The notes: generated by a model not told the origin, from the sequence alone. Shown: positions 22,744 to 45,336, counted from the stretch's first letter. The stretch is 64,000 nucleotides of DNA from a bacterium (GCA_025774805.1 JALGZR010000001.1:9989-73988); one strand, 5' to 3'. Translations and numbers: made by a program.

Positions 22744-24000
22744 GTGAGAACGCGCACCGTGATTCCGGAGACCGTCGGGAGCATCCTTGGGACAGCACTT
22801 CTACTGGGGGGTGGCTTCGCGGAGTCCTCCGCCCAGCAGATCGTGACGACGGTCGGTCAGCTGTACTCGGCCATCGACAACGCGAACAGCGGGACGGGAG
22901 ACTCGACCATTCTCGTCGCGGATGGAACGTACACCCTGGACTCCGGGGCTCTCATCATCCGCGCGGACGGAGTCACCGTCCGTGGAATGAGCGGCTCCCG
23001 CGACGCCGTGATCATCGAGGGACAGGGGATGTACAACTCGGCGGTGACCCAGGCGTTCCAGATCGCCGCGGACGACGTGACCCTCGAGACTCTGACCATC
23101 CGCCTTGTCAGCACCCATGCCGTGCAGGTCCACGGGGAGCCTCCCTTCGACGCGGACCGGGTCGTGCTCCGAGACCTGCGGATCCAGGACGCCGGTGAGC
23201 AGCTGGTGAAGGTGAGCTCCGACTACAGCGGGGGCTTCTCCGAGGACGGCTTGGTCGAGGGTTGCGAGCTCGAATACACGGCGGGAATCGGGCCGCAGTG
23301 GTACATCGGCGGAGTCGACGCCCTTTTTGCCCGGAATTGGACGGTGAGAGGAAACACCTTCCGGGGAATCCGCAGCCCCGAGTCGAGGGTGGCGGGACAT
23401 GCGATCCAGTTCTGGACGAGTAGCGAATACACCCTCGCCGAGAGGAACATCATCATCAACTGCGATCGGGGGATCGGATACGGCCTGGGAGACCGCGGAC
23501 ACGTGGGCGGAGTCATCCGCAACAACATGATCTACCACGATGGAAGCCGCGGCGACGTCGGGATCGAGCTCGAGAACGCACCCGGCGCAAAGGTGTACCA
23601 CAACACGATCTACCAGGAGCACGGCTTCCCGGCCGCCATATCCTACCGATGGCCCGGAACGACGGACGTGCACATCTCGAACAACCTGATTCTCAAGAAC
23701 GGCGGTCTCTCGGACGCCATCCATTCGAGGGATGGCGGCAGCGCACTCGTGGAGGTCAACTACATCGGCTCCCTCAGCGACTGGTTCGTTAACCCCGCAG
23801 AAGGTGATCTCCACCTGGCCGGCCAGGGAATTCCCCAAGTGGTCAACCAAGGGATCGCGCTGCCCGAGGTGACGGACGACTTCGACGGCGAGCTGCGGCC
23901 GCTGGGAAGCGGGATCGAGCTCGGAGCGGACGAGATCGCAGCCGGGCCGTCTCCCGTTCTGAAAAGGTCGTGGGGGGCCCTCAAGGGGATCTACCGTTGA
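22744..24000 (+). CDS. Secreted right-handed beta-helix protein ending in SWGxLKxIYR tail
   Basis: A 418-residue protein starting at GTG 22744 with AGGAG six bases upstream; the upstream part of the open frame has no coding character. A signal peptide ends near residue 30 (GGGFAESSA). The body is a parallel beta-helix of the pectate lyase/poly-D-mannuronate lyase type: DSTILVADGTYTL, a GVTVRGMSGS turn, and stacked repeats such as IRNNMIYHDGS, VYHNTIYQ, ISNNLILKN. It ends LRPLGSGIELGADE followed by a short unstructured stretch and the tail SWGALKGIYR. The same tail occurs on the unrelated protein at 44755. Function could be polysaccharide binding or lysis; no catalytic residues can be assigned. 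Confidence 0.8.
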   Translation: MRTRTVIPETVGSILGTALLLGGGFAESSAQQIVTTVGQLYSAIDNANSGTGDSTILVADGTYTLDSGALIIRADGVTVRGMSGSRDAVIIEGQGMYNSAVTQAFQIAADDVTLETLTIRLVSTHAVQVHGEPPFDADRVVLRDLRIQDAGEQLVKVSSDYSGGFSEDGLVEGCELEYTAGIGPQWYIGGVDALFARNWTVRGNTFRGIRSPESRVAGHAIQFWTSSEYTLAERNIIINCDRGIGYGLGDRGHVGGVIRNNMIYHDGSRGDVGIELENAPGAKVYHNTIYQEHGFPAAISYRWPGTTDVHISNNLILKNGGLSDAIHSRDGGSALVEVNYIGSLSDWFVNPAEGDLHLAGQGIPQVVNQGIALPEVTDDFDGELRPLGSGIELGADEIAAGPSPVLKRSWGALKGIYR

Positions 24001-24130
24001 GGTGTTCGTCGCGGCTCGAGATCGGATTCGTATGCGGGATGGCGGCAATTGCCTACCGGATCGGTCGATTCTGCATCAGTCCGCTTGACGTTTCCGACTT
24101 GGGTTTCCAAAATCAACAAGTGAGCGGCCG

Positions 24131-24186
24131 GGATCCCTGAGTTGCTGTTGCTAACGGCATGGTCCCGCACGGTGACTCAGGGATCC
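24131..24186. repeat. 12-bp perfect inverted repeat
   Basis: GGATCCCTGAGT at 24131-24142 is matched exactly by ACTCAGGGATCC at 24175-24186, with a 32-base spacer. There is no T-run after it, so it is not a typical intrinsic terminator. It could be a protein-binding operator or an RNA hairpin at the 3' end of the beta-helix transcript. Confidence 0.6.
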
Positions 24187-24509
24187 TGTTCATGATCTGA
24201 AAACCTTGATGCCGGCACGGGGACTGGGTGCCTCCTGGGAGGAGCCGGCACGGAATCCTCGGTTCCGCTGACGCCCGACCGCTGTTCAATCACATCACAG
24301 GCTTGTGCGCAAACGAAACAGCCCGCGCGAGAGGCGTCTCTGCGATCTCCCGCCGCGGGGGATCGGGAAGCACCTCGAATGGGAGAGATCGCCCCCGTTT
24401 ACCGCAATGCCGGTTCGAGCGGCGCCGATTCTCGGTTTTCGGGCACCTCACAATTCGCACGCGAGCACTCACAGGCCCCGCGGGGCCGGGGTGCAACGGG
24501 TGCCAGGGA

Positions 24510-24525
24510 GGGCATGTTTTTTGCA
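24510..24525 (+). promoter_or_regulatory. Sigma-54 (-24/-12) promoter
   Basis: GGGCATGTTTTTTGCA fits the consensus TGGCACG-N4-TTGCA with two mismatches. The invariant GG (24511-24512) and GC (24523-24524) are exactly ten bases apart. It lies about 128 bases before the GTG of the FN3 protein, giving a predicted leader near 117 bases. The sigma-54 activator at 33989 is a candidate regulator. Confidence 0.65.
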
Positions 24526-24652
24526 CTCGGATGCGGGGACTCGTAGCTCGGAGGCGGACGGGAACCTCCGCAGTCCACAACTCAACAGAGGATTCGCAGG
24601 ATTGGCACGGCGAGGACGCGTCGAGCCGTGCGGATTCTCGGAGGTCGGTATC

Positions 24653-27600
24653 GTGCATCTCTGTGCCTGGCGATATCGGAGAGCTCTCGGGCTCTCTCTC
24701 CTGATCGCCTCGATGACAATGCTGGGACACGCGACGAGTGCGACAGCCCAGAGCGAGCTGCTGCAACCCCAGGACATGGAGTATCTTGGCGCGTTTCTGC
24801 TCCCTTCGGGGCGTGAATTCACCTATACCAAGGGGGTGAAGGCTTACAGACCGGACGGAGATCCCCAGGGACCGGACGACGGGTTTCCCGGGTCTTTGTT
24901 CGGGACCGGTCACGTTCACCACCCGTTGGTCTGGGAGGTGAACATCCCGGTACCGGTGAACTCCCGAGACCCCGACGATTTGCACAGTGCCGAAATACTG
25001 CAGGAACCGGAAGACATCATCACCTGGGACATCGAGTTGAAGGGTCTCGAGTACCTTCCTCCCCAAGGTGCCCAAACGACCCCGAAGCTTCACTATGCCA
25101 CCGGTACGCACTTTCAGTACGATCTCAACGCGTACCACGGCTGGTTCGAGACAAATCTCAGCTCCCCCCAGCGGGCAGGATCATGGTTCGTCGGTGACCC
25201 TAACGAGATCAATCCCCTCAACACGAATGAGTACATCTTCACGATTCCGCAGGAATGGGCGGACCAGTACGTTCCGGGCAAGCGGCTTGCGTGTGGTCGG
25301 TTCCGGGGAGGTCAGTGGTCGAGCGGACCGACCATCATCGCCTTCGGACCCTGGAACCACGGCAACCCCCCGCCCGAGGACTACAACCTCGACGCCACCC
25401 CGCTCTTGCTGTACGAGTACCTCGCGTGCCTCTGCGAGAGTTGCGAAGGCGGAGGCAACGGCGGTAATTGTCTCGAGGGCCACTGCGAGGACGACGAGTG
25501 GAGGGGAGGGGCTTGGATTCACGGGGAGAGGACGGCCGTTGCCATCGTCGGTGTAAAGGGATATGGCGACTGCTGGTACGGCTATGCCGACGGAACCATC
25601 TACAGTGAGTGCGCGCCGAACTGTCCTGAGCTCGGAAGTCGTGGCTATTGGTCCTCTTACTACAAGTCGGTGATACTTCTGTACAATCCCGATGACCTCG
25701 CTGCTGTGGCACGGGGTGAGCTGAACGCCGATCTACCGCAGCCGTACGAAGTCGTCGATATAGGTCCCTACCTGTTCGGGTACGACGGAGAACTGGACCG
25801 AGGCAAGATCAAGGTGGCCGGCACGGCCTACGACAGCGAGCGCGGCTATCTCTACATCACCGAGATGTATGGATACGACCCCCGTCCGGTCGTTCACGTG
25901 TGGAGCGTCGGCGGATCCCCGTCCGAGCCGGACTCGATTCCGCCCGATCCGGTCACCGATCTCGGAGCAACTCCGGGAGCGACGGGAGAGGTCGAGTTGA
26001 CATGGACGGCCCCCGGCGACGACGGCTCGTCGGGACGGGCGATCATGTACCTCGTCCGCCGCTCGGATTCGACCATTGACGACGAGGGCGCCTGGAGCGA
26101 CGCCACTCCGGTGACGGGAGCACCGTCTCCTCAGACGGCCGGTTCCTCGGAGTCTATGACGGTCACGGGACTCCAGCCCGAGACCACCTACTACTTCTCG
26201 GTTCGAGCGCGAGACGACGCGTTGAACGTCGGGGACCTGTCCAACTCCCCGTCCGTGACGACGGCCGCCGATGAGGACCCACCGATCCTGATCAATGTCT
26301 CGGTCGAGGAGTCGGAACCCGGAACGCTCCGCTTCACCTGGTCGACGAACGAACCGGCCACCTCGGAGGTCCGGTGGGATGCTGATTACCCGGGCTCCGG
26401 ACCGCTCGCCAACACTCTGAGCGATCCGCTGCTCACGATCGAGCACGATCTGGAGCTCAGCGGTCTCTCCGCGGGGTCACGGATCCACTATCAGGTGAGC
26501 TCGACCGACGCCGCGGGCAACACGCTGACGGATGCGATCGACTACATCGACATCCAGAGCACCGACACGACGCCGCCCGGCATCATCGCCGGTCCCTCCG
26601 TCTCGGTCGACTCCTCGGCCACCATGGCGCTGATCTCGTGGCGAACGGACGAGCCGGCCGTCGGGTGGGTCGAGTGGGGTATGACACCGTCCTTCGGCCG
26701 GGGCACGGACGAGACCACCGAGTATTCCACCAGTCACAATCACCGGCTGGTCGGGATCTCCCACGGCCAGATCATCCACTTTCGCGTGCACGTCACGGAC
26801 GGGTCCGGCAACACGACCGTCAGCGACGCCGACTCGTTTCTGGTCGAGACCGACTTCGATCCTCCCGTGGTCACGGATCCGGTCATCGTCAGCACCTCCT
26901 CGCAGACGCTGCTGACCTTCTACACGGACGAGCCGTCTTTCGGAACCCTCGATTGGGGGGTCGATCCGAACGATCTGTCGAATTCCATCCCGCTGGCCTC
27001 CGCCGATCAGCCGGCGATCATGCACCTGGCGCTGCTCGAGGGATTGTCCGCCTCAACGACCTACTACTGGCGGCTCTCACTGAGTGACCTGAGCGGAAAC
27101 GTCACCGAGACCGAGGGGGACTTCCTGTTCTCCGACGGCACCCCGTTGGACTCGACGGCCCCGCTCGCGCCGGACGGGCTCTACATCGCGAACTTCGACG
27201 AGGAGTTCGGTGTCGCCCTCCAGTGGATGCCGAACTCGGAGAACGATCTCGCCGGCTACGAGGTGCACCGTCGCCCGATCGGTGAAGACGGGGAACCGAC
27301 CGGGGCATGGTATACGATCAACCACGGGTTGCTCACCGAAACGGCGTTTCTCGACGACGGCGTCGGAATCGGATTGAGCTACGAGTACGAAGTGGTCGCC
27401 CGGGACGTCAGCTCCAATGAGAGTCCACCGTCGGAGAGCGTGGAGTTCGATCCCGAATACTGGATGTCGTTGCAGAATCTTCTGGGCACCCCACACCCCA
27501 ATCCCGTTCCCGGAGGAGATGTCACGAGGATCGACTTCCGGGCGCCCGCCGTGCTCGGAGCCGAGTCGGTCCGGGCCGAGATGATGGTCTACGACGTTAC

Positions 27601-27775
27601 CGGCCGCAGCGTGAGGGGGCTCTTCCGGGGGCTCATGACGCCGGGCCAGATCCGGACGGCACACTGGAACGGCCGCGATCGTTTCGGCGAGCTGGTCGGG
27701 AACGGGATCTACTTCGTGCGGTTGCAGATCGCGGATCGCCCCGCCGTGACCCGGAAGGTCACGGTTCTGCGGTAG
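24653..27775 (+). CDS. Large secreted protein with fibronectin-III-like domains and FlgD-like sorting tail
   Basis: A 1040-residue protein. GTG 24653 is preferred: GGAGGT lies seven bases upstream and it is followed at once by a signal peptide (RRALGLSLLIAS ... SATAQ). Residues about 35-420 form a unique domain rich in Trp, Tyr and Cys (for example LACLCESCEGGG and GDCWYGYADG) that I do not recognise. From about 431 there are fibronectin-III and purple-acid-phosphatase-like Ig domains (VTDLGATPGATGEVELTW, LQPETTYYFSVRARD and three more units), and the last about 95 residues are a FlgD/type IX-like module (NPVPGG, VYDVTGRSV, NGIYFVRLQ) ending RKVTVLR. It is probably a surface or extracellular protein; transcription is likely sigma-54 dependent. 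Confidence 0.85.
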   Translation: MHLCAWRYRRALGLSLLIASMTMLGHATSATAQSELLQPQDMEYLGAFLLPSGREFTYTKGVKAYRPDGDPQGPDDGFPGSLFGTGHVHHPLVWEVNIPVPVNSRDPDDLHSAEILQEPEDIITWDIELKGLEYLPPQGAQTTPKLHYATGTHFQYDLNAYHGWFETNLSSPQRAGSWFVGDPNEINPLNTNEYIFTIPQEWADQYVPGKRLACGRFRGGQWSSGPTIIAFGPWNHGNPPPEDYNLDATPLLLYEYLACLCESCEGGGNGGNCLEGHCEDDEWRGGAWIHGERTAVAIVGVKGYGDCWYGYADGTIYSECAPNCPELGSRGYWSSYYKSVILLYNPDDLAAVARGELNADLPQPYEVVDIGPYLFGYDGELDRGKIKVAGTAYDSERGYLYITEMYGYDPRPVVHVWSVGGSPSEPDSIPPDPVTDLGATPGATGEVELTWTAPGDDGSSGRAIMYLVRRSDSTIDDEGAWSDATPVTGAPSPQTAGSSESMTVTGLQPETTYYFSVRARDDALNVGDLSNSPSVTTAADEDPPILINVSVEESEPGTLRFTWSTNEPATSEVRWDADYPGSGPLANTLSDPLLTIEHDLELSGLSAGSRIHYQVSSTDAAGNTLTDAIDYIDIQSTDTTPPGIIAGPSVSVDSSATMALISWRTDEPAVGWVEWGMTPSFGRGTDETTEYSTSHNHRLVGISHGQIIHFRVHVTDGSGNTTVSDADSFLVETDFDPPVVTDPVIVSTSSQTLLTFYTDEPSFGTLDWGVDPNDLSNSIPLASADQPAIMHLALLEGLSASTTYYWRLSLSDLSGNVTETEGDFLFSDGTPLDSTAPLAPDGLYIANFDEEFGVALQWMPNSENDLAGYEVHRRPIGEDGEPTGAWYTINHGLLTETAFLDDGVGIGLSYEYEVVARDVSSNESPPSESVEFDPEYWMSLQNLLGTPHPNPVPGGDVTRIDFRAPAVLGAESVRAEMMVYDVTGRSVRGLFRGLMTPGQIRTAHWNGRDRFGELVGNGIYFVRLQIADRPAVTRKVTVLR

Positions 27776-28872
27776 ACCGGAACGGCACAATTCGAGCGGT
27801 CCGGAAGGAGGGATTCCGACGATGGACATCCTCCCGGACCCCGATCGATGGCGCCTCGGCTTGGCCGGGGCGCCACCGTCATGATGCCCCGTACGAATCC
27901 ATGGAGCTTGGAGGAGAAGGCGACGAAGGAACTATACGGGTGCTCTCCCGGGCCGAGCCGGGGCTCCTTCCTAGGGAGCCGGTGCCGGCCTTTCCGGCGA
28001 TCGAGGCGGCCTTCGTAGGTCGGGCCTGCCGTCCCCGTTGGAGAATCGAGTCTCGCCCCCCCCCATTGCACACCCCGTCGCCGGGACACACTTCCTCCCG
28101 GTCGGCGGGGCCTTGTCCGGCGTGACTCGGAGTTGTGACCAATCGGCGAGAACCAATCCAATATCGTCACCATGGTCATTCCGTATCGTCGCAGGTCGGT
28201 GTTCGGGTCCGGCCGGGCACCACCGGAAGCACTGAGGCGCGCTGCCGTGGCGATCGTCGAGTGGGGCGAAACGTTACGATCATTCTCCGGAGTGCGTCCG
28301 GCACCGGTTCGAGCTTACCGGAACCGGGCGTCCCGAGAATCGGACGCAGCCGGAGGAGACCGAGGGTACCGCTCTGGAGGAGGAGGCGATCCCGGTCGGC
28401 ATCGAAGAAGCCTCATCCCTGGCCCTGATCGAGCCACGGTGCTATGTTCCGGCGAATTGGGAGGGGAGCATTGGGCGCGATGAGGGCCGGCGGCCGGGCC
28501 TGGGGAGCGACTTCCGGCGGCATCGGACACTTCGGCCGGTGACGGGGCTGGGGGCGGGACAACGCCAGGACAGCCGTTTCCAGAGATACCCGCAACGGCA
28601 GGAGAGCCGCCTCCATCGCCGGTTTACCCGTGACCGAACCATCGGTACCTGCCGCCGCGAGCTATTCCCCGATCCGGACGACACCACGATCAACGACGAC
28701 GTCGCCGTTCCTCCGGGAATTCTCTCCCGTGGCGCCCCCGTCACCTTCGAGTTCCTCGCTATCGCCAGCTCCCTCTGGCGGCCATTGTATATGACAGTCG
28801 CAGCGGTCCAGGATGAGGTGGGCGATCTCATCATCGTCCGACACTTGCCCTGAACCTAGACCAGGAGGAACC
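27776..28872. other. Long intergenic region
   Basis: About 1.1 kb between the FN3 gene and the SGNH hydrolase gene. No frame in it shows recognisable protein features or a good ribosome site. A strong hairpin near its left end (27849-27875) is listed separately. It might be decayed coding sequence. Confidence 0.35.
27849..27875 (+). terminator. Hairpin downstream of the FN3 gene
   Basis: TGGCGCC (27849-27855) pairs with GGCGCCA (27869-27875), and inside it CGGC pairs with GCCG around a three-base loop, giving an 11-bp stem with one bulged mismatch. It lies about 75 bases after the FN3 stop. There is no U-tract, so it may stabilise the transcript end or act with Rho. Confidence 0.4.
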
Positions 28873-29937
28873 GTGACTCAGCGCAAGACGTTCCTGGCGG
28901 ACACCGCGCTCTTTGCGGGAACCCTGATCGTATGCCTCGTCGTTGCCGAGGTCGTGCTTCGGGCGGTCGGGATCTACGGCATACGGATCGGCAAGATCGA
29001 TCACATAGAGCCCGTCGACGATCCTATTCTTGATTTCCGGCTAGTTCCCGGCTCCGAGTGGGTGTACAACGGAATCCCCTATCGCATCAACGCCCACGGC
29101 TGGCGCGACCACGGCCACGAGTACGAGAAGCCAGACAGTACGGTACGGCTCGTCATCCTCGGTGACTCCGTCCTCAACGGTCACGGCGTGAAGATGGAGG
29201 AGGTCTGGGCGAAGCAGCTCGAATACCGACTGAATGAAGGCGGTGGCACCCCGCACTTCGAGGTCATCATGCTGGCCATCGGGGCGCTCAACACCAAACA
29301 GGAGGCCCATCTCTTGGAGGTCGAGGGGATGAAGTACGACCCGGATCTGATCCTGGTGGGCTACGTCCTTAACGACCCCGAACCGGGCATGAGCTCCCAG
29401 GGCGCACGCGAACGCCGCGAGCACATGGGCGCTTTCCACAAGTTTAAGCAAATGCTCAAGTTGTCAAGCGTCGTTTTCCACTCCGTCCGATTGATCGACA
29501 GTCTGATCTGGCGATTGCAGGTGGCGATCGGCAGGAATGACAGCTCGCACTACATCGACCGCGACTACTTCGGCGTTCTCCATGAAAGCGATGAGCAGTG
29601 GGCCGACGTCGTCGCGGCATTCGGCAAGATCCGTGAGCTCGCCGATCCCGAATGCACTCCCGTTGGCCTGGTGATCTTCCCTGTGATCTTCCAGCTCGAC
29701 AACTACCCCTGGGAGGACGTGCACTCTCAGGTGCGCGAGGCCGCGGCCGCCGTAGGATTCCGGGTCCTGGACCTGCTAGAGACGTACCGGGCTTACCCGG
29801 AAGCTGATACGCGCATCGGACGCGGAGACCATGTGCACCCAAACGCTCTCGGGCACCGGATCGCCGGCGACGCGGTCGCGAAGTGGCTCGTGGCCGAGAA
29901 CCTCTTGCCCGCGGACTCCCTTCGGCTCGCCCGGTGA
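28873..29937 (+). CDS. Membrane-anchored SGNH-fold hydrolase/acyltransferase-like protein
   Basis: A 354-residue protein. GTG 28873 follows AGGAGG directly. One N-terminal hydrophobic helix (about residues 10-32) would anchor it with the catalytic domain outside. SGNH blocks are visible: block I LVILGDSVLNG with Ser99, a block III-like VGYVLNDPEPG with Asn, and block V GDHVHPN with Asp319 and His322. Such proteins include AlgX/AlgJ-like O-acetyl transfer enzymes and lipases; near an exopolysaccharide locus a polysaccharide de- or acetylation role is plausible but inferred. Confidence 0.82.
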   Translation: MTQRKTFLADTALFAGTLIVCLVVAEVVLRAVGIYGIRIGKIDHIEPVDDPILDFRLVPGSEWVYNGIPYRINAHGWRDHGHEYEKPDSTVRLVILGDSVLNGHGVKMEEVWAKQLEYRLNEGGGTPHFEVIMLAIGALNTKQEAHLLEVEGMKYDPDLILVGYVLNDPEPGMSSQGARERREHMGAFHKFKQMLKLSSVVFHSVRLIDSLIWRLQVAIGRNDSSHYIDRDYFGVLHESDEQWADVVAAFGKIRELADPECTPVGLVIFPVIFQLDNYPWEDVHSQVREAAAAVGFRVLDLLETYRAYPEADTRIGRGDHVHPNALGHRIAGDAVAKWLVAENLLPADSLRLAR

Positions 29938-32708: not shown

Positions 32709-33689
32709 TCACCCGGCGTGGGGCTCGCCCCATTGCCTCCAGTCGGCGTGGGATTCGTAGCCGAATTCCACGAGGAGGTCTCCGGCGAGACGGCTGAACT
32801 GCTCCTTCTGCTCGTCGGAGAAGTGGTTGATCCAGTCCCCCGCAATACCCTTACGATAGAAGTCGCTCGAACTCCCTTTGCCCTCACTGCGGCGAGTAAC
32901 GAACCGGAAGGAAGAGCGGTGGATCATATCGTTGAGTACGGGTTCCGCGATGGGCAACTCGAGAAAGTCCAAGAGCCGCGCGACGACCTCGCGGGGTCGC
33001 TGTTTCATGTTCTCGTACGATATCGATAAGATTCCGTAAGAGTTGGCATACTCCGCCTCGAGCTCCATGGCCCGCCGCCACTTGAGGACCCTGTCCTCGA
33101 ACGCTTCCGTCCTGTCATACGTGCGCTTGAGATGGAACTCGTCGGATACCACGACGTCGCGACCGTCCCGGTGCACCACGATGAGCTTGGCTTTCGGAAA
33201 CAGCTCACGAATCTTCGGGATGTAGGGGACGTTCGTCGGCGTCTTGTCCACGAGATAGGCGCGTGGGCGCAGCCGGTCGAAAACGAAGGAATAGAACGTA
33301 CGAATCGTCTCTTCGGCTGAGTCGCACGCCAGAAGCCGACGCCGGAGTGCGCCTTGATCCCAGAGGGACAGGTCGTGGACGTCAGTCGGTCGCTCCGCCG
33401 CACTCAGCGACGACTGGCCCCGCGCCAGGCCGAGCGCTTTGCGCAGCGGTCGCGTCCACTTTGCAGCTCGGTGCCGGGGCAGCATTCGCCATCCTCCCCC
33501 CGCCCAGGCAACCTTGCGGAACAGGGCGTGGGTCGCGGCCTGAGGGCCCTCTTCCAGCGCGTACCGGAGCACGTGGGTCTCGGTCAGCCCGCGAAGATCC
33601 GGATGTAGGCTGAGAAGGTTCACGAGCCAGGTGGTCCCGCTCTTGTACTGACCGACAATGAATGCGAGCTGACGACCGTCTGCTTCCAT
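32709..33689 (-). CDS. Sulfotransferase
   Basis: A 326-residue protein. ATG 33689 has GAGGAA five bases upstream; a further in-frame ATG at 33728 lacks a ribosome site. The 5'-phosphosulfate loop QYKSGTTWLVNLL is at about residues 13-25 and the 3'-phosphate-binding strand KLIVVHRDGRDVVVS near 185-200, both diagnostic of PAPS-dependent sulfotransferases. The protein likely sulfates sugar hydroxyls of the local polysaccharide. It is divergent from the sigma-54 activator gene, with about 300 bases between them. Confidence 0.9.
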   Translation of the reverse strand: MEADGRQLAFIVGQYKSGTTWLVNLLSLHPDLRGLTETHVLRYALEEGPQAATHALFRKVAWAGGGWRMLPRHRAAKWTRPLRKALGLARGQSSLSAAERPTDVHDLSLWDQGALRRRLLACDSAEETIRTFYSFVFDRLRPRAYLVDKTPTNVPYIPKIRELFPKAKLIVVHRDGRDVVVSDEFHLKRTYDRTEAFEDRVLKWRRAMELEAEYANSYGILSISYENMKQRPREVVARLLDFLELPIAEPVLNDMIHRSSFRFVTRRSEGKGSSSDFYRKGIAGDWINHFSDEQKEQFSRLAGDLLVEFGYESHADWRQWGEPHAG

Positions 33690-33921
33690 CGGATTCCTCG
33701 GAGGGAAAGACCTGGGTTCTCGCGACATTATATGATGTCCGGATCCGCGGTCATCCGCAAGGATCGGATTCGCGGCTCGCGGGTAGCCTACCCCGCCCGC
33801 CTCGCGGACTGCACACCATTCCGGTTGCACAATGCGAGAGGGTGCACGAAAGCCCTTTGCGCACCGTGGGCGAATCGGAGCGATTGCCGGCAAATCTGAT
33901 CGACTCTGGTCTGCGTTTGCG

Positions 33922-33937
33922 TGGCACGGAAACTGCA
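33922..33937 (+). promoter_or_regulatory. Sigma-54 (-24/-12) promoter of the activator gene
   Basis: TGGCACGGAAACTGCA differs from the consensus TGGCACG-N4-TTGCA at one position. GG (33923-33924) and GC (33935-33936) are exactly ten bases apart. The predicted start of transcription near 33948 leaves a leader of about 40 bases before ATG 33989, suggesting that the activator gene is itself sigma-54 dependent and possibly autoregulated. Confidence 0.7.
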
Positions 33938-33988
33938 CAGCTTGGTCGCGTCGGTTCGGTTTCGGCCGGAGTCCGGGAGAGGCGCCCC

Positions 33989-35413
33989 ATGCAGAACATC
34001 TTGATCATCGAGCCCGACGCTCGCTATCGATCTCGCGCTCGGGGAGCGTTGGAGAGCCTCTCCTGCCAGGTGCGCGAGTCCGCCTCGATGGAGGAGGGGC
34101 TGCGCGCCATGCTCGAGACCCCCCCCTCCCTCGTCATCGCCGGAAGCAACGAGCCCGAGGCCGCCGACCTGAAGCTCCTGCGCGTCGCGCGCCAGGGAAC
34201 GCGACCTGTGCCCGTTCTCGTGCTGGCGTCGTCGGGGACGACGGAGGGCGCCATCGGCTTCATGGACGGCGGCGCGTACGACTACATCGCGAAGCCCGTT
34301 AACCCCTCCGAGCTCTTGGCGGTCGTGCAGGACATCTTGCGGCTCGCCGGCGACGCGTCTCGGCCCCTGCGAATAGCTCCCCCCGCGGATGGCATGTCCT
34401 CGCGGAGCTCAATCATCGGGCGCAGTCCCGAGATGATCGAGATCTTCAAGATGGTCGGCCGGATCGCAAAGTCCGATGCGGCCGTGCTCGTCCAGGGCGA
34501 GAGCGGCACGGGCAAGGAGCTCGTCGCGAGAACGATCCACGAGAACAGCCGGCGCGCGGGGAAGCCCTTTCTGGCCGTGAACTGCGCCGCCATCCCGGAG
34601 ACCCTGCTGGAGAGCGAGCTCTTCGGGCACGAAAAGGGCGCGTTCACCGGAGCGGCCTACTCGCGCAAGGGGAAGTTCGAGCTCTGCCACGGAGGCACGA
34701 TCCTTCTCGACGAGGTCGGAGACATGAGCCTCGCCACCCAGTCGAAGATCCTGCGCGTGCTCCAAGAGCACACGTTCGAGAGGGTCGGTGGGGAGCAGAC
34801 GCTGAGCTCCGACACACGAATCATCGCCGCCACGAACAAGAGTCTCGTCGAGGCGATCGAGCGCAGCGAGTTCCGGGTCGATCTCTTCTATCGTCTCAAG
34901 GTGGTCTCTGTCTTTCTGCCCCCGCTCCACAAGCGGCCCGGCGACCTGCCGCTCCTCATCGATCACTTCGTGAAGAAGTACTCGCATCAGGCCAAAGTCG
35001 AGATCCGGGGCATCTCGCGGCGCGCGCAGGCGCTCCTCGAGGCGCAGACCTGGACGGGCAACGTTCGAGAGCTGGAGAACGCGATCCAGACGGCCGTGGT
35101 GTTGAACCGGACGGGGACTCTCGACCTCGAGGACTTCCCGTTCCTGCAGTCGGCCGGTCGAACGGGGGCCGACGACGTCCGCCGCTCCGTGCTCGTGGAT
35201 TTGCGCGGAGCGGCGAAGAGGGCCGCGCGCGTGCTGCTCGCCGAAGACTCCCCCACGTCCCCCGCCGGGATCTACTATGGGTGCCTCAGCGCCGTGGAGA
35301 CGGCGGTCGTCGAGGCGGCGCTCGAGTCCTACGGTGGGAACCAGGTGCAGGCGGCCCGCGCCCTGGGCATCAGCCGCAACACCCTGCGCAGCAAGATGCG
35401 CATCTCCTCCTGA
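33989..35413 (+). CDS. Sigma-54-dependent response regulator with degenerate receiver
   Basis: A 474-residue NtrC-type activator. ATG 33989 follows GGGAGA. Residues 1-118 have the receiver fold, with ILIIEPD at the acidic pocket and the conserved Lys in IAKPVN (102), but the phosphoacceptor strand reads LVIAGSNEP, so Gly52 stands where Asp is needed. The AAA+ domain (about 142-370) has Walker A GESGTGKE (170-177), the sigma-54-contacting GAFTGA loop (217-222), Walker B TILLDEVGDM and an arginine-finger region. The C-terminal Fis-type helix-turn-helix is GNQVQAARALGISRNTLRSKM. Control is therefore probably not by ordinary phosphorylation. A -24/-12 promoter precedes it. Confidence 0.93.
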   Translation: MQNILIIEPDARYRSRARGALESLSCQVRESASMEEGLRAMLETPPSLVIAGSNEPEAADLKLLRVARQGTRPVPVLVLASSGTTEGAIGFMDGGAYDYIAKPVNPSELLAVVQDILRLAGDASRPLRIAPPADGMSSRSSIIGRSPEMIEIFKMVGRIAKSDAAVLVQGESGTGKELVARTIHENSRRAGKPFLAVNCAAIPETLLESELFGHEKGAFTGAAYSRKGKFELCHGGTILLDEVGDMSLATQSKILRVLQEHTFERVGGEQTLSSDTRIIAATNKSLVEAIERSEFRVDLFYRLKVVSVFLPPLHKRPGDLPLLIDHFVKKYSHQAKVEIRGISRRAQALLEAQTWTGNVRELENAIQTAVVLNRTGTLDLEDFPFLQSAGRTGADDVRRSVLVDLRGAAKRAARVLLAEDSPTSPAGIYYGCLSAVETAVVEAALESYGGNQVQAARALGISRNTLRSKMRISS

Positions 35414-35465
35414 TTCGGCATCCCCTTCAGGGGGGTGGCGGTGCATCGGGAAGCGGTTCGGGACA

Positions 35466-35643: not shown

Positions 35644-35681
35644 AGACTTCCTCCTGCCGCCCCGGACCCGCGAGGAGCCGA

Positions 35682-38127: not shown

Positions 38128-38138
38128 GGAAATCGAGA

Positions 38139-38921: not shown

Positions 38922-39098
38922 GAGGCCGGCCCGCGCGAAGATCGTGAACGCCGTCTCCTCGGAGAGGCCCCGATCGCGATGGACCCGGTACAGATCCTCG
39001 AGGTCCGCGGCGAGCTCCAGGAGGATCCTCGACTTCGCGGGCCGGGGAAGATCGAGACGATCACGAGTCTGCCGCAGGACGTCGGCGAATCGGGTCAC
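38922..39098 (-). pseudogene. Possible remnant of a HAAS/permease-prefix-type domain
   Basis: From GTG 39098 leftward the frame reads LPRPAKSRILLELAADLEDL and then HRDRGLSEETAF, close to the helical prefix domain (R..I..EL..DLEDL...RGLSEEEA) found before MacB-like permeases and in PadR-linked HAAS proteins. The remaining frame is simply antisense to the GT2 gene. I infer a truncated remnant; it could also be a short real gene. Its left boundary is approximate. Confidence 0.35.
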
Positions 39099-39243
39099 GA
39101 CGCCAAGGGGCGCGACCCGGAGGGGGGACCGGCGGGGGGCCTCCGGGCCGGCCGCCGCGGGAGCCCCGACTTCCGCAATCCTTGACGTGAGCGGTAGGTT
39201 TCCGGACTCTGGCCGGAGTCATTCCCAGGAGGTGGCGGCGCCC

Positions 39244-41145
39244 ATGACGGAATCCCCCGACCGGCCGAATCCGGGCCAGGTCGATCAACTGGAGCAGGAA
39301 GAGCGGAACTGGCTCGAGGGTGTCTACCGGGGCGACCGGCTGCCCGAGCTCTCCCTACGGGTCGTCCTGGTCGGCCTGGTGCTGAGCGTTCTCACCATCG
39401 TGTTCAACGTCTACATGGGGTTGAAGACCGGCTGGGGCGAAGGCGGCGCGATCATCAGCGTGATCCTGGGCTTCACGATCATGAAGCTGTTCGGTCAGGT
39501 CGACCGGAAGGATCGGCCCTTCAGCGAGCTCGAGAACAACATCAGCCAGACCATGGCTTCCGCGTCGGGATCCCTGGGCAACATCGTGAACGTGATTCCG
39601 GCGATGTTTCTCCTCGCGTCGGCGGGCATCATCGCACGGGCTCCGACGACCCTCGACATCATTCTCTGGTGCTTCTTCACGTCGCTGCTCGGCGTCGTCT
39701 TCGCCATTCCCCTCCGCAAGCAGATCGTCGTCGTGGAGAAGCTCGTATTCCCCACCGGGACGGCGGCCGCGAAGACGATCCAGGCGGTGCACGCTCACGG
39801 AGAGGAGGCTCTCAGCAAGGCGAAAACGCTGTTCCGCGTCGCGGTGCCGTCGTTCCTGATCACTTGGTTCCGAGACGGATGGATCGGTCCGCTCCCGCAC
39901 CTCCCGGCCTCCTGGTATCCGTTCACCGGCATGATTCCGGGGGTCGGAGCGGCGCAGACGTACATGGCGGGGCTGTCCATCTCCCCGTTCATGTTGACCG
40001 GGGGCTTCCTGTTCGGCCCGCGCGTGGGGACGAGCCTCCTGATCGGGGGAGTGATCGCCTGGCTCGTCGCGGCCCCCCGCCTCATGGCGAACGGCGTGCT
40101 GGAGACCATCGCGAACGACTTCGGCGAGCGCTACATCAACTTCCTGGAGACGGGGTACATCTTCCCGATCCTCGTGAAGTGGACGATGTGGCCCGCCATC
40201 GGGGTGATGGTCTCCGCCGGCATCACGATGACCGCCATCCGGTGGCCGGTGATCAAGCGGGCGTTCGCCTCGATGATCGCGGGGACGAAGACCGGCGGGA
40301 AGGGGGCGATCTCCCACCTCGAGCTCTCCTTCAAGTGGCTGGGGCTCGTGTTCCTCTTCGCGATGGCCGGCATCCTGTACATGCTCACGGTCCGGTTCGG
40401 GGTCCCGTGGTGGATCGGAATCCTGACTCCGATCATGGCCTTCGCGCTCTCGCTCATCGCCGTGCGCGCCACCGGCGAGACCGACATCAACCCTGTGGGC
40501 ACCATGGGCTCCATCACGCAGATCGCCTTCGGTCTCGCGCAGCAGGGAGCGACCACGAACCTCATGGCGGGAGGGATCTCCGCGTCCGTCGCATCCGAGT
40601 CGGCCGACATGATGCAGGACCTCAAGACCGGTTGGCTCCTCGGCTCGACGCCCCGTAAACTGGTGATCGGTCAGCTTCTCGGCGTGACCGCCGGGGCCGT
40701 GTTCGCCGCGGTCGTGTTCAACATCATGATCGCCGCCCACGACATCGGATCGGCGACGCTTCCCGCCCCCGCGGCGATCACCTGGGAGGGGCTTGCCCGA
40801 ATGATGGAGAAGGGGGCGGGTGCCCTGCCTCCCGGCGCCGGCCCGGCGCTGCTCATCGGCATTCTGGTGGGGACGGTGCTGACCTACCTCGACGGGAAGA
40901 AGCTCGTGCCGAAGAAGTACCTGCCGAGCGCGATCTCGGTCGGACTCGCCATGATCGTTCCCTTCGACTTCGTCGTCGCGATGTTCCTGGGAGGCATCGC
41001 GATGCTCATCACGACGCGCCGGAATCCTGCCTGGGCGGCCGAGCACGCGGCTCTCATCGGTTCGGGGGGAATCGTGGGTGAGGGGCTGGCGGGGGTTCTC
41101 GCCGCGATCACGATTCTGGCGACCGGCGGGGGTGCGGGTCACTAG
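39244..41145 (+). CDS. OPT-family oligopeptide transporter
   Basis: A 633-residue inner-membrane protein with about 15 hydrophobic helices. It shows the OPT hallmarks: LTIVFNVYMGLKTGWGEGGAI in the first helices, ENNISQTMASASGSLGN (the conserved NxxQT-type motif), FPTGTAAAKTIQ, and GDIxPxxT-like ETDINPVGTMGS later. Family members take up oligopeptides or metal chelates with protons. ATG 39244 is preceded by AGGAGGT at a somewhat long distance (11-13 bases); an in-frame GTG at 39232 is an alternative. A 33-bp repeat begins exactly at its stop codon. Confidence 0.92.
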   Translation: MTESPDRPNPGQVDQLEQEERNWLEGVYRGDRLPELSLRVVLVGLVLSVLTIVFNVYMGLKTGWGEGGAIISVILGFTIMKLFGQVDRKDRPFSELENNISQTMASASGSLGNIVNVIPAMFLLASAGIIARAPTTLDIILWCFFTSLLGVVFAIPLRKQIVVVEKLVFPTGTAAAKTIQAVHAHGEEALSKAKTLFRVAVPSFLITWFRDGWIGPLPHLPASWYPFTGMIPGVGAAQTYMAGLSISPFMLTGGFLFGPRVGTSLLIGGVIAWLVAAPRLMANGVLETIANDFGERYINFLETGYIFPILVKWTMWPAIGVMVSAGITMTAIRWPVIKRAFASMIAGTKTGGKGAISHLELSFKWLGLVFLFAMAGILYMLTVRFGVPWWIGILTPIMAFALSLIAVRATGETDINPVGTMGSITQIAFGLAQQGATTNLMAGGISASVASESADMMQDLKTGWLLGSTPRKLVIGQLLGVTAGAVFAAVVFNIMIAAHDIGSATLPAPAAITWEGLARMMEKGAGALPPGAGPALLIGILVGTVLTYLDGKKLVPKKYLPSAISVGLAMIVPFDFVVAMFLGGIAMLITTRRNPAWAAEHAALIGSGGIVGEGLAGVLAAITILATGGGAGH

Positions 41146-41176
41146 CCCGCATATCTCACCAGGCTCGTCGCGAGGC
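41144..41176. repeat. 33-bp copy of the repeat end found at 35466
   Basis: AGCCCGCATATCTCACCAGG and the 13 bases after it match 35466-35498 with one mismatch. The block starts inside the TAG stop of the OPT gene and lies in the convergent gap with the outer-membrane protein gene. No matching right end is seen nearby, so this is a solo end. A GC-rich hairpin (41174-41180 with 41200-41206) follows. Confidence 0.6.
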
Positions 41177-41223
41177 CCCGGGCCCCCGGTGGCGGGTCTC
41201 GGGGCCGATCTCCGATCGACCCG

Positions 41224-42477
41224 CTACCAGTCCCCCTCCTCTTCCTCTTCCGGGCTGCGCCGCCGGGTCCACTTCTCGACCCCGGTGAGGGTCAGCCCGA
41301 AGCGGACGAACTGCTCGTAATACTCGGTGTCATCCTTCGTGCCGCGCCAGCCGTACTCGAAAAACGCGTCGATCGTCCCCCGCCCGCCCGCGAAGCCGAA
41401 GCCCGATCCGGCGGTCAGCACGTGCTCCCGAACCTCCCGGCTCTCGTTGTCGAGCACGTGAAGGAGCTCGGTCCGCCATCCGCCTCGAATCGGCAGAGAA
41501 GGACCGCGTCCCCGGGCGGAGAGAACCCACTCGAAGCCCGCCGCAAACCGGTTCACGTCGACCAGCTCGTCGATCGGGCTGAGCCCGTCCGTCCCTTCCC
41601 AGGCCTCGTGCACCCAATCGGCGGTCAGGAGCACGTCCTCGAGGGGACGGATCTCCAATCCGAGGCCGTATCGCTCCGCCACCTCGCCCTCGCGATCGAG
41701 CTTGACCTCTTCCGACCCGCCGAGGACGTCGACGTTCTCCAGTCGGCGGCTTCCACTCAGCTCCGAGGGCAGAGAGATCCACGCCCCCGCGGCGACGCGC
41801 GATCCGAGCGACTTCCGCACCCCGGCGCGGAAGGCGACGCCCCAGAGGCTGAGCCTGTCGAAGTCGCGGCTGTCGCCGAAGCCGGATTCCGCGGGAAAGT
41901 CGTTCTCCCAGAGCACCTCTTGGTTGAGCAGCAGTACATCGAGTCCCGTCCCGAACTGCGTCCCCCATCGCTCGTGGGCGAAGAGGACCGGGATGCGGAG
42001 CACGTTCCCGGTCGCCTCGAAGACCTGACGGTAGCTCTGTCCGTCCACCGTCGTGGTGTCCCTCGCGATCGTGCCCCCCTTGCGTCTTCCGACCAGGAGG
42101 CCGGTACCGAGACGCAACCCCCTCGGCAGCGGGTAGACGAGGGAGAGATTCGGGATGAGGTTGTCGTACTCCTTGCGGACCTTCTGGCCCCCGGCGCCGA
42201 GGGGCTCCTGGGTCCGGATCCATTCGGTCTCGTAGCTGCCGGTGAATCGGGTCTCCAGGGCGAAGGCCAGACTGGCCGGGTTGCCGGCCAGGCTCGGCGT
42301 CGAGCCCGCCGCCTCCGCTCCTCCCCGGCCCCGCACGGATGCCTCCGACGAGAGGACCGGCTCTCCGAAGCCGCGCACCGAATAGCCGGAATCGGCATCG
42401 ACGATCGAGGCGAAGGCGATCGTGAGGACGAGCCCGGCGACGCCAGCCCCCCCGGTTCGGCTCACGCAGGGGCTCAC
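41224..42477 (-). CDS. Predicted outer-membrane beta-barrel protein
   Basis: A 417-residue protein starting at GTG 42477, which overlaps the stop of the upstream lipoprotein gene (GTGA). A signal sequence (GGAGVAGLVLTIAFASIVDA) is followed by alternating polar/hydrophobic strands with Tyr, Trp and Gly girdle residues, for example LRLGTGLLVGRRKGG and RYGLGLEIRPLEDVLLTADWV, like FadL/PorV-type barrels. The C-terminus is acidic (SPEEEEEGDW), unlike the usual terminal Phe of porins. Translational coupling to the lipoprotein suggests the two form an envelope pair. Substrate unknown. Confidence 0.7.
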   Translation of the reverse strand: MSPCVSRTGGAGVAGLVLTIAFASIVDADSGYSVRGFGEPVLSSEASVRGRGGAEAAGSTPSLAGNPASLAFALETRFTGSYETEWIRTQEPLGAGGQKVRKEYDNLIPNLSLVYPLPRGLRLGTGLLVGRRKGGTIARDTTTVDGQSYRQVFEATGNVLRIPVLFAHERWGTQFGTGLDVLLLNQEVLWENDFPAESGFGDSRDFDRLSLWGVAFRAGVRKSLGSRVAAGAWISLPSELSGSRRLENVDVLGGSEEVKLDREGEVAERYGLGLEIRPLEDVLLTADWVHEAWEGTDGLSPIDELVDVNRFAAGFEWVLSARGRGPSLPIRGGWRTELLHVLDNESREVREHVLTAGSGFGFAGGRGTIDAFFEYGWRGTKDDTEYYEQFVRFGLTLTGVEKWTRRRSPEEEEEGDW

Positions 42478-43715
42478 GGTTCGTCCCCCTGATCCCCGGG
42501 CGTATACCAGATGTGGAGCACCGGTCGCCTCGCGGAATCGTCGGAGTCGTGGGCGTGGAAGCGGATGTAATCGGTATCTGGCCGCTCATCGAGGGCGCGG
42601 ACCTGGAATCCGTGGTTCTCTTCCCCTTCGACGAAGAGCTCCGCGAGGAGACCGAAAACGTCGATCGAGACGCTGTCGACCTCGGTCACCGCATCGTTCA
42701 CGCCGTAGAGAGAGTTGTCGACATCGGTGCCGTCGCCGGCCCACGGCTCGGCCAGCACTCGCTGCGCTCCCACCCCGACTCGGCGAAAGCTGGAGAGAGC
42801 CGGATCGATGTAGAGGATGAGCGCGGCGCGGTTCACCGTGCTCCGAATCCACAGCTCGGGCAACGAGTCCCGATCGGGAATCCCGAAGCGGAGGAGGGCG
42901 CGGCCCGGAACTCCGCGGGCCACCGTGACTCTCTTCGATTGACCGGAGAGGGTCACGAAGTCGGGGGTCGTCTCGAGCAAGAACGTGTCGTCGTCCGATG
43001 CGAGAGAGATCGACGTGTCCACGCCACCGTCCGACCAGTGGACGTCCAGGACGGGGGGATCGGTGGTCTGTCGGGATCCGAGTTCGATCTGGGAGGCGGT
43101 TCCGGCGAGAGGGGACAGCAGGAATCCGAAGTTCGAGTCGGGAGCATCGACCCAGAAGCGCGCGAGATCGGTGACGGGGATCGCCACCGTATCTCCCCCC
43201 GCCGCGAGCGCGAACGTGACCGTATCGACCGGTTCGGGAAGAAATGCCGGCAGCGTGCTGTCGGCCAGCGAGAAGTTCTCTGTCCAGGGGGCGGTGATCC
43301 GGTGAAGGGCCACCGGAAGAGGGTCGGTGTCCCCGATTCCGTCCAGGTATTCGAAGCGAACGAAGGCGCTGTCGACCACGGTCCCGGAGTCGGGAAACGC
43401 CTCGGAGCCGAAGCGCACGAGAGCACGCGACCGGTAACCGGAACGCATTCCGACGAGGACCACGCTGGAGAACCCGGGGGAGACCGCGGGACGAGAGAGC
43501 TGATAGTCGACCGAGGTGTCCGGCGGGCTCACGGCTAGGAAGCGGACCGCTTTGAGCTCTCCCTGATTCTCGATGAACCCGACCCCGAGCGTGTTGTCCT
43601 CTTTCGTCGCACACGCGGCGAACGGCAGCCAGAGCGCCAACGTAAGTGGTAGAAGAGCCGAACGAAACGGTGACCGACCGTATCGGTCTCCCGTCACTCG
43701 AATCGGAAGCGGCAC
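42474..43715 (-). CDS. DNRLRE-like secreted lipoprotein
   Basis: A 413-residue protein. The N-terminal signal ends in LPFAACATKEDN, a good lipobox with the lipidated Cys near residue 35. Several beta-rich segments with patterns such as RALVRFGSEAFPDSGTVVDSAFVRF and RALLRFGIP resemble DNRLRE/carbohydrate-binding-type domains present in surface proteins. No catalytic motif is visible. It is coupled to the barrel protein gene (overlap at 42474-42477). Confidence 0.7.
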   Translation of the reverse strand: MPLPIRVTGDRYGRSPFRSALLPLTLALWLPFAACATKEDNTLGVGFIENQGELKAVRFLAVSPPDTSVDYQLSRPAVSPGFSSVVLVGMRSGYRSRALVRFGSEAFPDSGTVVDSAFVRFEYLDGIGDTDPLPVALHRITAPWTENFSLADSTLPAFLPEPVDTVTFALAAGGDTVAIPVTDLARFWVDAPDSNFGFLLSPLAGTASQIELGSRQTTDPPVLDVHWSDGGVDTSISLASDDDTFLLETTPDFVTLSGQSKRVTVARGVPGRALLRFGIPDRDSLPELWIRSTVNRAALILYIDPALSSFRRVGVGAQRVLAEPWAGDGTDVDNSLYGVNDAVTEVDSVSIDVFGLLAELFVEGEENHGFQVRALDERPDTDYIRFHAHDSDDSARRPVLHIWYTPGDQGDEP

Positions 43716-44287
43716 GACGGCGGATTTCCTTCTCGGAGGGTCTTACGAGGCCGGGAGTCTAGCAGCCCTCAGCTCAACACGCCAGCGGGCGAAGTCGCCG
43801 AGTTGACGTTTGCCGAAACCGTTCGGAAAGTGGGTCACACGAGGATGACGGAAGGAGAAATCGGGTCGTGCCCCCCAAGTGAGACACCCGGCCGACCCCG
43901 CTTCCAGCTCGATCCCTTCCGCTCTTCGTAACTCCGGGACTTGCATCGCGCTCAGAGCAGACATCGGTAGGGCCGGGGTATCACGTGGGACCCCGGAGAC
44001 GCGATGGTTCCGGCAGGAGGCCGCGCCGAGTCCTTCGACCCCCAGCCCCTGGCCCCGGTTCTGGGACGGCCCGGGAGAGCCAGGACGGGGCTAGATTCGA
44101 CTCCGGCGCGGTCCTCTTCCGGGAGGGGCGACCGGATACCGCAGTGTACCCCAACTGCTTCCGGCTTCGAACCCTTCCCGCTTGAGGGGGGACGTGAGAT
44201 CCGTGATCCCACTCCCCCCGATTCCCCCTCCTTGACACACCCCAGCGCCGCTCGTACTGTCTTTGCCGCGTCTTCGGACGTCCGCGC
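43716..44287. other. Intergenic region upstream of tRNA-Met
   Basis: About 570 bases with no recognised gene; the tRNA promoter lies at the right end (44232-44260). Confidence 0.4.
44232..44260 (+). promoter_or_regulatory. Sigma-70-type promoter of the tRNA gene
   Basis: A perfect -35 TTGACA (44232-44237) is followed after 17 bases by TACTGT (44255-44260) as -10. The tRNA begins 27 bases after the -10 element. The -10 element is weak in sequence, but spacing and -35 are ideal. Confidence 0.55.
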
Positions 44288-44364
44288 GGCGGTGTAGCTC
44301 AGCTGGTTAGAGCAGCGGAATCATAATCCGCGTGTCCGGGGTTCGAGTCCCTGCACCGCTACCA
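44288..44364 (+). tRNA. tRNA-Met (anticodon CAT)
   Basis: The 77 bases fold into a standard cloverleaf: acceptor stem GGCGGTG/CACCGCT (first pair G-U), D arm GCTC/GAGC, anticodon stem GCGGA/TCCGC with loop ATCATAA (anticodon CAT), five-base variable region, T arm CGGGG/CCCTG with TTCGAGT. The CCA end is encoded. Anticodon CAT also fits tRNA-Ile2, but the sequence looks like elongator Met. The 3' 26 bases are copied at 55421. Confidence 0.95.
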
Positions 44365-44440
44365 TTTTGGGGCCTGGAAGTCGTTGATTTCCGGGCCCTT
44401 GCCCGTTCGGGCCTGACCGCGGTCAGCCCGTCTCCAATAT
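44339..44440 (+). repeat. Left copy of tRNA-end direct repeat (att-like site)
   Basis: From the T arm of tRNA-Met to CCGTCTCCAATAT this segment is imperfectly repeated at 55421-55524. The 26-base tRNA part differs at one position. Downstream, GGAAGTCGTTGATTTCC, TTGCCCGTTCGGGCC and CCGTCTCCAATAT are shared. Such duplicated tRNA 3' ends are the usual footprint of integrase-mediated insertion. Confidence 0.8.
44370..44398 (+). terminator. Hairpin after tRNA-Met
   Basis: GGGCC-T-GGAA (44370-44379) pairs with TTCC-G-GGCCC (44389-44398) around a nine-base loop, five bases after the CCA end. There is no strong U-tract, but the location suggests a transcript-end hairpin. Confidence 0.4.
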
Positions 44441-44521
44441 CTCTCCAAAAACTTGGGCGGAATCGGGCGGGTCCAGGAGGCGGATCGCCTCCTCGATCAC
44501 CCTCGGGCTGAGGTGCATGTA
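44423..44521 (-). pseudogene. C-terminal remnant of a tyrosine-type integrase
   Basis: Read leftward from 44521, about 32 codons give YMHLSPRVIEEAIRLLDP and end ...VFGEILETG before TGA at 44425. Tyr-x-His-Leu-Ser-Pro followed by a short helix is the classic end of tyrosine recombinases, with the first Tyr being the catalytic nucleophile. The rest of the gene is gone, replaced by an IS3-type fragment. Lying next to the tRNA 3' end, it marks the integration module of the island. Confidence 0.65.
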
Positions 44522-44580
44522 CCCTCGGCCTCCTTCAGGATCCGGACGATGTGCTCCTCAGTGAATCGGGATCGCTTCAT
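44522..44580 (-). mobile_element. 5' fragment of an IS3-family orfA
   Basis: From ATG 44580, with a GGAGG ribosome site upstream, the frame reads MKRSRFTEEHIVRILKEAE, the typical N-terminus of IS3-family OrfA helix-turn-helix proteins. It then joins abruptly to the integrase tail. Only about 19 codons remain; the ends of the IS are not visible. Confidence 0.7.
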
Positions 44581-44754
44581 CTTGAGCCTCCTGGTTGCAG
44601 AATTCCTCCAGAAAGCTCTACTTCCAGGCGATCTACGTAGAGGGCGACCTCACGCCACCGGTCCATCCGAGGTCGAAAGGCCATCGGAGCCGTTCAGGGA
44701 ATCTGCGGACTCCGAGTCCCATCCTCAGGGCCGTGAAGAGCCACAGCTCTCACG

Positions 44755-45336
44755 TCAGCGATAGATGCTCTTGATCCTACCCCAGCTACCGTCCTCCACC
44801 GCAACCGGCTGCTTAAGGCAACCGTCGAACTTCTTATTGCAGGGTGGATTGTCATCGTTCGAGTATCCGATCCACTGAATCGGCCATATCTCCGGAACCG
44901 GCTCCTGGCAGTCCACTGCTTGCTTCCACCCGTTCATGGATGACGGAGCGAAACAGTACTGCCCCGGTACAGTACTAAAGACATGGATATCCATGACGTT
45001 AATGGGAGCATACGCACACTCACCCACTTGGAGTAAGAGAGTGGTCCCGCTGCCGTGGTTGACGAAACCGCTCTTTTCAACGAACTCGAGAATCACATTG
45101 TTTGGATTCATCGAAACGATATCGAACTCGGCCCCCAGCGTTCCATCGTTTTCGTCACAGGCGTACCAGAGCTTCAGAATCAGCAGACCGAAACTGAAGG
45201 AACCCCAGTTCATATACGGATCTGTGTTACTCGCACTAATCGTCCAACCGTAGACGGGATGCTCCGCAGACGCGCTCGGCGCCATGGTTGCGACAAACAG
45301 GGACAGAGCGGCTAGAACCGTCACAAAGCGCTTCAT
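44755..45336 (-). CDS. Small secreted protein ending in SWGxIKxIYR tail
   Basis: A 193-residue protein. ATG 45336 has GGAGG seven bases upstream and is followed by a signal peptide (KRFVTVLAALSLFVATMAPSASA). The mature part is about 170 residues with four or more cysteines (YACDEND, GECAYAP, YCFAPSS, NPPCNKKFDGC), probably disulfide-bonded. No known domain. The last residues, SWGRIKSIYR, match the tail of the beta-helix protein at 22744. Base composition is less GC-rich than most of the window, in keeping with its place on the tRNA island. Confidence 0.75.
   Translation of the reverse strand: MKRFVTVLAALSLFVATMAPSASAEHPVYGWTISASNTDPYMNWGSFSFGLLILKLWYACDENDGTLGAEFDIVSMNPNNVILEFVEKSGFVNHGSGTTLLLQVGECAYAPINVMDIHVFSTVPGQYCFAPSSMNGWKQAVDCQEPVPEIWPIQWIGYSNDDNPPCNKKFDGCLKQPVAVEDGSWGRIKSIYR

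Follow-up and report, generated by a model that had tools for sequence, protein, structure and literature searches.

One of the questions raised by this locus is why two proteins with unlike bodies should end in almost the same ten residues. The window, by which we mean the whole 64,000-nucleotide stretch of bacterial DNA that was analyzed, encodes a beta-helix protein and a small protein for which the initial annotation had noted a common ending and had proposed a transferable sorting, anchoring or processing signal of an undescribed kind. In this paper we looked at where the tail occurs, which bodies and genomes carry it and what might read it. The tail is real, widespread and apparently undescribed, and represents a new class of C-terminal tag. 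Very likely it serves as a signal for sorting or targeting in some form.

Two window proteins with one ending

The features discussed here are collected in Table 1. The frame of the beta-helix protein is open from 22543 (22543..24000, +) with the GTG at 22744 as the likely start, and that of the small protein is open to 45390 (44755..45390, -) with ATG 45336 as the likely start. At the N-terminus of each protein there is a hydrophobic stretch that resembles a signal peptide. Their final decapeptides, SWGALKGIYR (23968-23997, +) and SWGRIKSIYR (44758-44787, -), both read SWGxhKxhYR, which confirms the shared tail. The DNA pattern WGx-h-Kx-h-[YF]R-stop occurs at exactly two places in the window, and these are the two tails; shuffles lead one to expect 0.00 such places.

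Table 1. Coordinates of the two tail-bearing genes, their neighbors and the permuted relatives
Feature	Position	Strand	Remarks
Beta-helix protein gene, exported, tail-bearing	22744..24000	+	GTG start 22744 yields signal peptide
C-terminal tail of beta-helix protein, PSPVLKRSWGALKGIYR and stop	23947..24000	+	Profile score 18.9
fn3-domain protein with FlgD-like C-terminal tail	24305..27775	+	Same-strand neighbor of the beta-helix gene
Small exported protein gene, cohesin-like body, tail-bearing	44755..45336	-	ATG 45336, MKRFVTVLAALSLFVATMAPSASA signal peptide
C-terminal tail of small protein, PVAVEDGSWGRIKSIYR and stop	44755..44808	-	Profile score 31.5
Peptidase C10 / FG-GAP protein with T9SS type A sorting domain	45893..49879	-	Neighbors the small tail gene, same strand
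T9SS type A (FlgD-like) sorting domain, residues 1246-1324 of the C10 protein	45908..46144	-	
Three tandem permuted genes	L152:1842-3559 (G003 contig C39)		Compared with window 44758-45336

The body of the first protein is a right-handed beta-helix (Pfam PF13229, E 8.9e-10). For the small protein no Pfam match was found, and its predicted structure (mean pLDDT 81.6) is a cohesin-like beta-sandwich that in the PDB is most similar to cohesins (2xdh, 2ccl and others; E about 2e-4). With a signal-like stretch at each N-terminus and a beta-helix set beside a cohesin-like beta-sandwich, the view that both proteins are exported and have unrelated bodies is upheld.

These cohesin matches raise one possible option, namely that extracellular proteins are linked to each other through the tail, which would act as a docking peptide in the manner of a small dockerin held by cohesin-type partners. 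Yet the other bodies do not have the cohesin fold, the tail does not have the calcium-loop motif of dockerins, and dockerins can be internal while the tails are always at the extreme C-terminus. Moreover, homologous bodies replace the tail by a T9SS-type tail, as described below, and we regard such docking as quite improbable.

The window also encodes an outer-membrane protein with a sub-threshold BamG match (41224-42477, -; E 1e-15, 57.6 bits, cut-off 250), whose gene is adjoined by that of a DNRLRE-domain protein (42474-43715, -). A sigma-54 response regulator (33662-35413, +) has a sub-cut-off match to PEP-CTERM-box regulators (347.7 bits, cut-off 502.6), and an exosortase is also encoded in the genome of the window (G000:C15:28624-29394).

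Sequence and predicted structure of the tail

The consensus over 182 tails is [VT]-P-[VTA]-E-x-[ST]-[ST]-W-G-x-[IV]-K-[AS]-[LMI]-[YF]-R, in which W, G, K, and R are invariant by the design of the search. The motif given in the initial annotation therefore holds as a tail but not in its width, as the consensus extends further upstream than was written: the tail is about 15-17 residues long and the ten-letter end is its core. Ile or Val is preferred over any hydrophobic residue, Tyr is found in 172 of 182 tails, and Ser or Thr stands before the Trp. The final Arg is also the end of the frame in 162 of 179 motif-bearing open frames, while 17 run 1 to 10 residues further, and no internal copy of the motif was found among these 179. 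When 467 further ORFs were scanned with a profile, only a few near variants turned up (e.g., SWGEVKALFGRED and SWGRVKATYR), all of them close to the C-terminus.

A signal peptide near the frame start is predicted for 124 of 154 tail ORFs (about 80%) compared with 117 of 467 control ORFs (25%). When any possible start is allowed, about 90% of the tail ORFs have one, and those without it are mostly short fragments. Three such ORFs are found in the genome of the window (L204, L205, and L206). L205 was considered as a cytoplasmic carrier and rejected, as it contains a frameshift and its signal peptide sits in the other frame. As judged by eye, the body of L204 (G000 contig C11, reverse strand, about 530-1460) resembles Omp28-type proteins. 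A lipobox-like site is present in only 9 of 140 tail proteins (median length 249) and an extra hydrophobic segment in 1 of 140. The initial annotation had let its proposal depend on an enrichment of the motif at the C-termini of exported proteins; this enrichment was found, with no clear cytoplasmic carriers, and together with the lack of internal copies it supports a transferable and undescribed signal.

In the model of the small window protein the tail is loose (pLDDT about 57-62) and includes a short helix at residues 186-192, and in the model of a second, unrelated tail protein (mean pLDDT 64.8) the final 16 residues have a pLDDT below 50. No beta-strands are seen at the tail in these two predicted structures. 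The option that the tail is a part of the body fold is unsupported, as it is unpacked in both of them. On a helical wheel the conserved tail residues lie on one face, with a mean hydrophobic moment of 0.52 over all tails. This moment is unexceptional, since 8% of same-residue shuffles are as high, and the conservation therefore points to specific recognition rather than to greasiness.

The same data bear on another explanation, in which the tail would be an amphipathic helix that anchors the protein in the outer membrane leaflet with no dedicated receptor. Such an anchor fits the amphipathic consensus and the helix predicted at its position, but the conservation goes well beyond hydrophobicity and suits specific recognition, the moment does not stand out from shuffles, and ten residues, two of which are basic, are short for stable anchoring. 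We consider it unlikely.

Bodies and lineages that carry the tail

When the tail was removed, 172 proteins fell into 65 clusters without mutual sequence similarity. Their domains include beta-helix, lamin-tail (LTD), NHL, laminin G, CBM96, FG-GAP, plastocyanin, DNRLRE, and choice-of-anchor J and V, and the commonest domain family matches just 3 of 64 tail proteins. The 'choice-of-anchor' domains of NCBI are named for their occurrence with alternative sorting tails. No Pfam or NCBIfam model for the tail was found with the 64 tail proteins, and a literature search found no paper that describes it. That the tail is tied to one key protein was also considered and rejected, as genomes with only one or two tail genes have differing bodies.

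The family of the small window protein is circularly permuted in another genome (G003; L152), where a 40-residue end segment is now at the front. In these genes the segment CIVPS...NVTVDCDP is N-terminal, while in the window relative it is C-terminal, and the identity is 41-55% (best E 2e-14). The signal peptide and the tail keep both ends. The tail is thus terminal, is carried by many unrelated exported bodies and is independent of both the fold and the order of the body.

Whole-genome tail counts were obtained by DNA pattern searches with the reversed pattern as a control, and the control matches were 0 in every genome set that was scanned. The genome of the window (5.1 Mb) has 23 tail ends and 0 with the reversed pattern. 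In the small phylum to which it belongs the tail is present in all 5 genomes, with 12-24 copies each and no control matches. A scan of public genomes gave at least 111 stretches with the tail; among the matches listed, the labels are mostly Eisenbacteria, Krumholzibacteriia, Latescibacterota, Effluviviaceae, UBP1, and unclassified bacteria. The carriers (Eisenbacteria, Krumholzibacteria, and Latescibacteria) are relatives of the Bacteroidetes about which little is known. In the Krumholzibacteria/Latescibacteria/UBP1 group at least one tail gene is found in 77 of 80 genomes (1 to 34 each, 669 in total), whereas the phylum that includes G006, a genome with the label 'Poribacteria', has the tail in only 2 of 84 genomes. 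From these counts the tail is bound to lineage, and its absence elsewhere serves as a good negative control. Tandem arrays of 2-4 diverged tail paralogs are frequent (L151, L152, L083, L089, L012, L150, L154, and L155).

Chance, or the common descent of one gene family that diverged everywhere except at its end, can practically be dismissed. Tandem duplicates do exist among the carriers (e.g., L151, L152, L083, and L089), but 65 unrelated bodies with differing folds, tail codons that vary synonymously, and the lack of both control matches and internal copies do not fit such an origin.

Exchange with the FlgD-like tail

Some homologs of the tail-bearing bodies do not end in SWG. A FlgD-like T9SS tail is found in 5 of 15 such homologs compared with 31 of 697 proteins overall (Fisher p 2.7e-4), where a regular expression defines the FlgD-like class and the test for swapping consists of these 5 cases. 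This class includes the window protein that is above the curated T9SS type A cut-off. In two of the five swap cases (L037 and L134) the SWG and FlgD-tailed homologous forms adjoin each other. On inspection, most of the remaining ten homologs have either a slightly altered tail or a broken frame.

The two tails are also neighbors. Same-strand neighbors of SWG genes have the FlgD-like tail in 13 of 143 cases compared with 18 of 554 other genes, a three-fold difference (p 0.005; permutation p 0.011), and a same-strand neighbor of this type is found for each of the two tail genes of the window. The neighbor of the small tail gene (45893..49879) matches TIGR04183 with 30 bits (cut-off 23), PF01640, and FlgD_ig with 35.4 bits, over the cut-off. 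The neighbor of the beta-helix gene (24305..27775) is below the curated cut-offs, with a weak T9SS type A match of 17.1 bits (cut-off 23) and a FlgD_ig match of 15.8 (cut-off 27). Among recurrent neighbor families of the tail genes no informative cluster was found. Over 189 tail-gene loci the tail proteins have a median ORF of 278 aa and their FlgD-tail neighbors of 667 aa; the FlgD and SWG tails may split the cargo by size.

Candidate machinery

SprA was found in 23 of 24 tail-bearing genomes, the PorV family in 24 of 24 (6 to 19 copies each, with roughly 11 in the genome of the window) and a PorU-like C25 peptidase also in 24 of 24, although many of the proteases among the C25 matches may be something other than PorU. 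None of the three was above cut-off in 14 control genomes. In the genome of the window a C25 gene is located close to a PorV-family gene on contig C31. Beside the tail genes, a search for PorV-family genes with a crude model, in which two of eight seeds are missing, gave one weak match in 1.07 Mb of flanking DNA. The tail proteins share with T9SS cargo a Sec signal peptide, the C-terminal location of the tag, and a genome with SprA, PorV, and PorU-like proteins.

In the Krumholzibacteria/Latescibacteria/UBP1 group SprA was detected in 67 of 80 genomes, of which the negatives are probably mostly incomplete or missed (G022 at least is a false negative), and the number of tails does not differ with SprA detection (p 0.93). 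SprA-like genes are also present in the nearly tailless 'Poribacteria' phylum, and the T9SS is thus insufficient for the tail. As the tail number is independent of SprA detection and SprA-like genes occur without the tail, the co-occurrence fits a T9SS but is no proof of one, and it could be the result of shared ancestry.

The initial annotation had also suggested a look for a co-occurring membrane protease or sortase-like gene, and no sortase-like gene tied specifically to the tail came to light. Exosortase, the best-known partner of short tails at the C-terminus, is found in 12 of 24 carriers and was undetected in the tail-rich genomes G002, G004, G013, and G014; since only half of the carriers have it, exosortase was rejected as a required partner.

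It is possible, though in our view doubtful, that the tail is a sorting or anchoring signal read outside the T9SS by a dedicated enzyme or adaptor, e.g., an uncharacterized protease or transpeptidase that would recognize WG-x-h-K-x-h-YR and attach the protein to the cell surface. All of the evidence for a transferable tag fits this explanation equally well, and so do the unlikeness of the tail to a T9SS domain and the presence of a T9SS without the tail in the 'Poribacteria' phylum. Yet no candidate enzyme was found other than exosortase, with its patchy occurrence, and both the tail swap and the adjacency point to the FlgD/T9SS class of tails.

The best reading is that the tail is a minimal T9SS cargo signal, i.e., one that is read by the type IX system, although in our judgment the odds for it are evenly balanced. 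For this reading we infer the following export route, including any cleavage of the tail. The tail protein would be exported by Sec and its signal peptide removed. The flexible tail may then form a short amphipathic helix, with Trp, Ile, Leu, and Tyr on one side and Lys and Arg beside them, and in the periplasm the type IX translocon, consisting of SprA with a PorV-family shuttle, would recognize it. The mostly small cargo would be moved to the cell surface, with the tail as a substitute for the ~80-residue FlgD-like type A domain that is found on homologous and on larger proteins of the same genomes. In a possible further step, a PorU-like C25 protease would cleave the tail and link the protein to a surface glycan.

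More generally, it is probable that we are dealing with a new class of export signal: 15-17 residues, probably helical, with neither a transmembrane segment nor a folded domain, spread over several candidate phyla and served either by a T9SS with its own shuttle or by an undescribed surface-sorting machine. The tail offers a simple sequence marker for surface and secreted proteins of several uncultured phyla that are known from genomes only. If the T9SS reads it, a peptide tag suffices in place of a folded domain, which bears on cargo recognition, and a very small export tag is on offer. If the T9SS does not read it, a new sorting machine is still to be found.

Comparison with known sorting signals

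The tail was suggested to differ from PEP-CTERM, LPXTG, and FlgD-like tails, and it does, as their motifs, transmembrane segment and folded domain are absent from it. PEP-CTERM, the exosortase-associated tag, is likewise a short C-terminal tag with a basic end on exported bodies of the 'choice-of-anchor' type, and a further similarity is that E-x-[ST]-W often stands ahead of the tail core. However, PEP-CTERM has a PEP box and a transmembrane helix, whereas the tail has no transmembrane segment and exosortase is missing from half of the carriers. MYXO-CTERM, GlyGly-CTERM, and LPXTG are also transferable C-terminal sorting tags, and body families related to those of the tail bear MYXO-CTERM or rhombosortase tails elsewhere. 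These tags need a transmembrane segment together with Cys-rich, GlyGly or LPXTG motifs, and the tail has neither; the LPXTG motif and its helix are absent from the tails.

The T9SS type A signal (TIGR04183, PF18962; FlgD-like PF13860) has more in common with the tail. It is located at the extreme C-terminus of Sec-exported, unrelated bodies of the surface type, its last residue is basic, it is found in genomes with SprA, PorV, and PorU, and homologous bodies carry either signal. In contrast, type A is an Ig-like beta-sandwich of 70-80 residues while the tail is a short helix or unstructured. TIGR04183, PF18962, PF13860, and PF13585 are absent from 64 tail proteins among the most frequent 25 of 29 and 25 of 32 families. 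In HBP35 the last 22 residues suffice as a T9SS signal and in RgpB the loss of two residues abolishes export (PMC11285876), which sets a precedent for T9SS signals that depend on the extreme C-terminus, as the tail would.

Different shuttles read different classes of T9SS signals (PMC12618676). The short CTDs of Prevotella intermedia, with 40-55 residues, are the shortest described (PMC11969387), and resemble the tail in that one organism uses a shortened signal beside its long counterpart (PMC11969387). They have three beta-strands and the motifs B, D, and E, while the tail is a third as long and has an unrelated consensus. The tail differs from all of these signals in length, sequence and predicted structure, and by structure it stands outside the CTD families described so far, even should its function prove to be similar.
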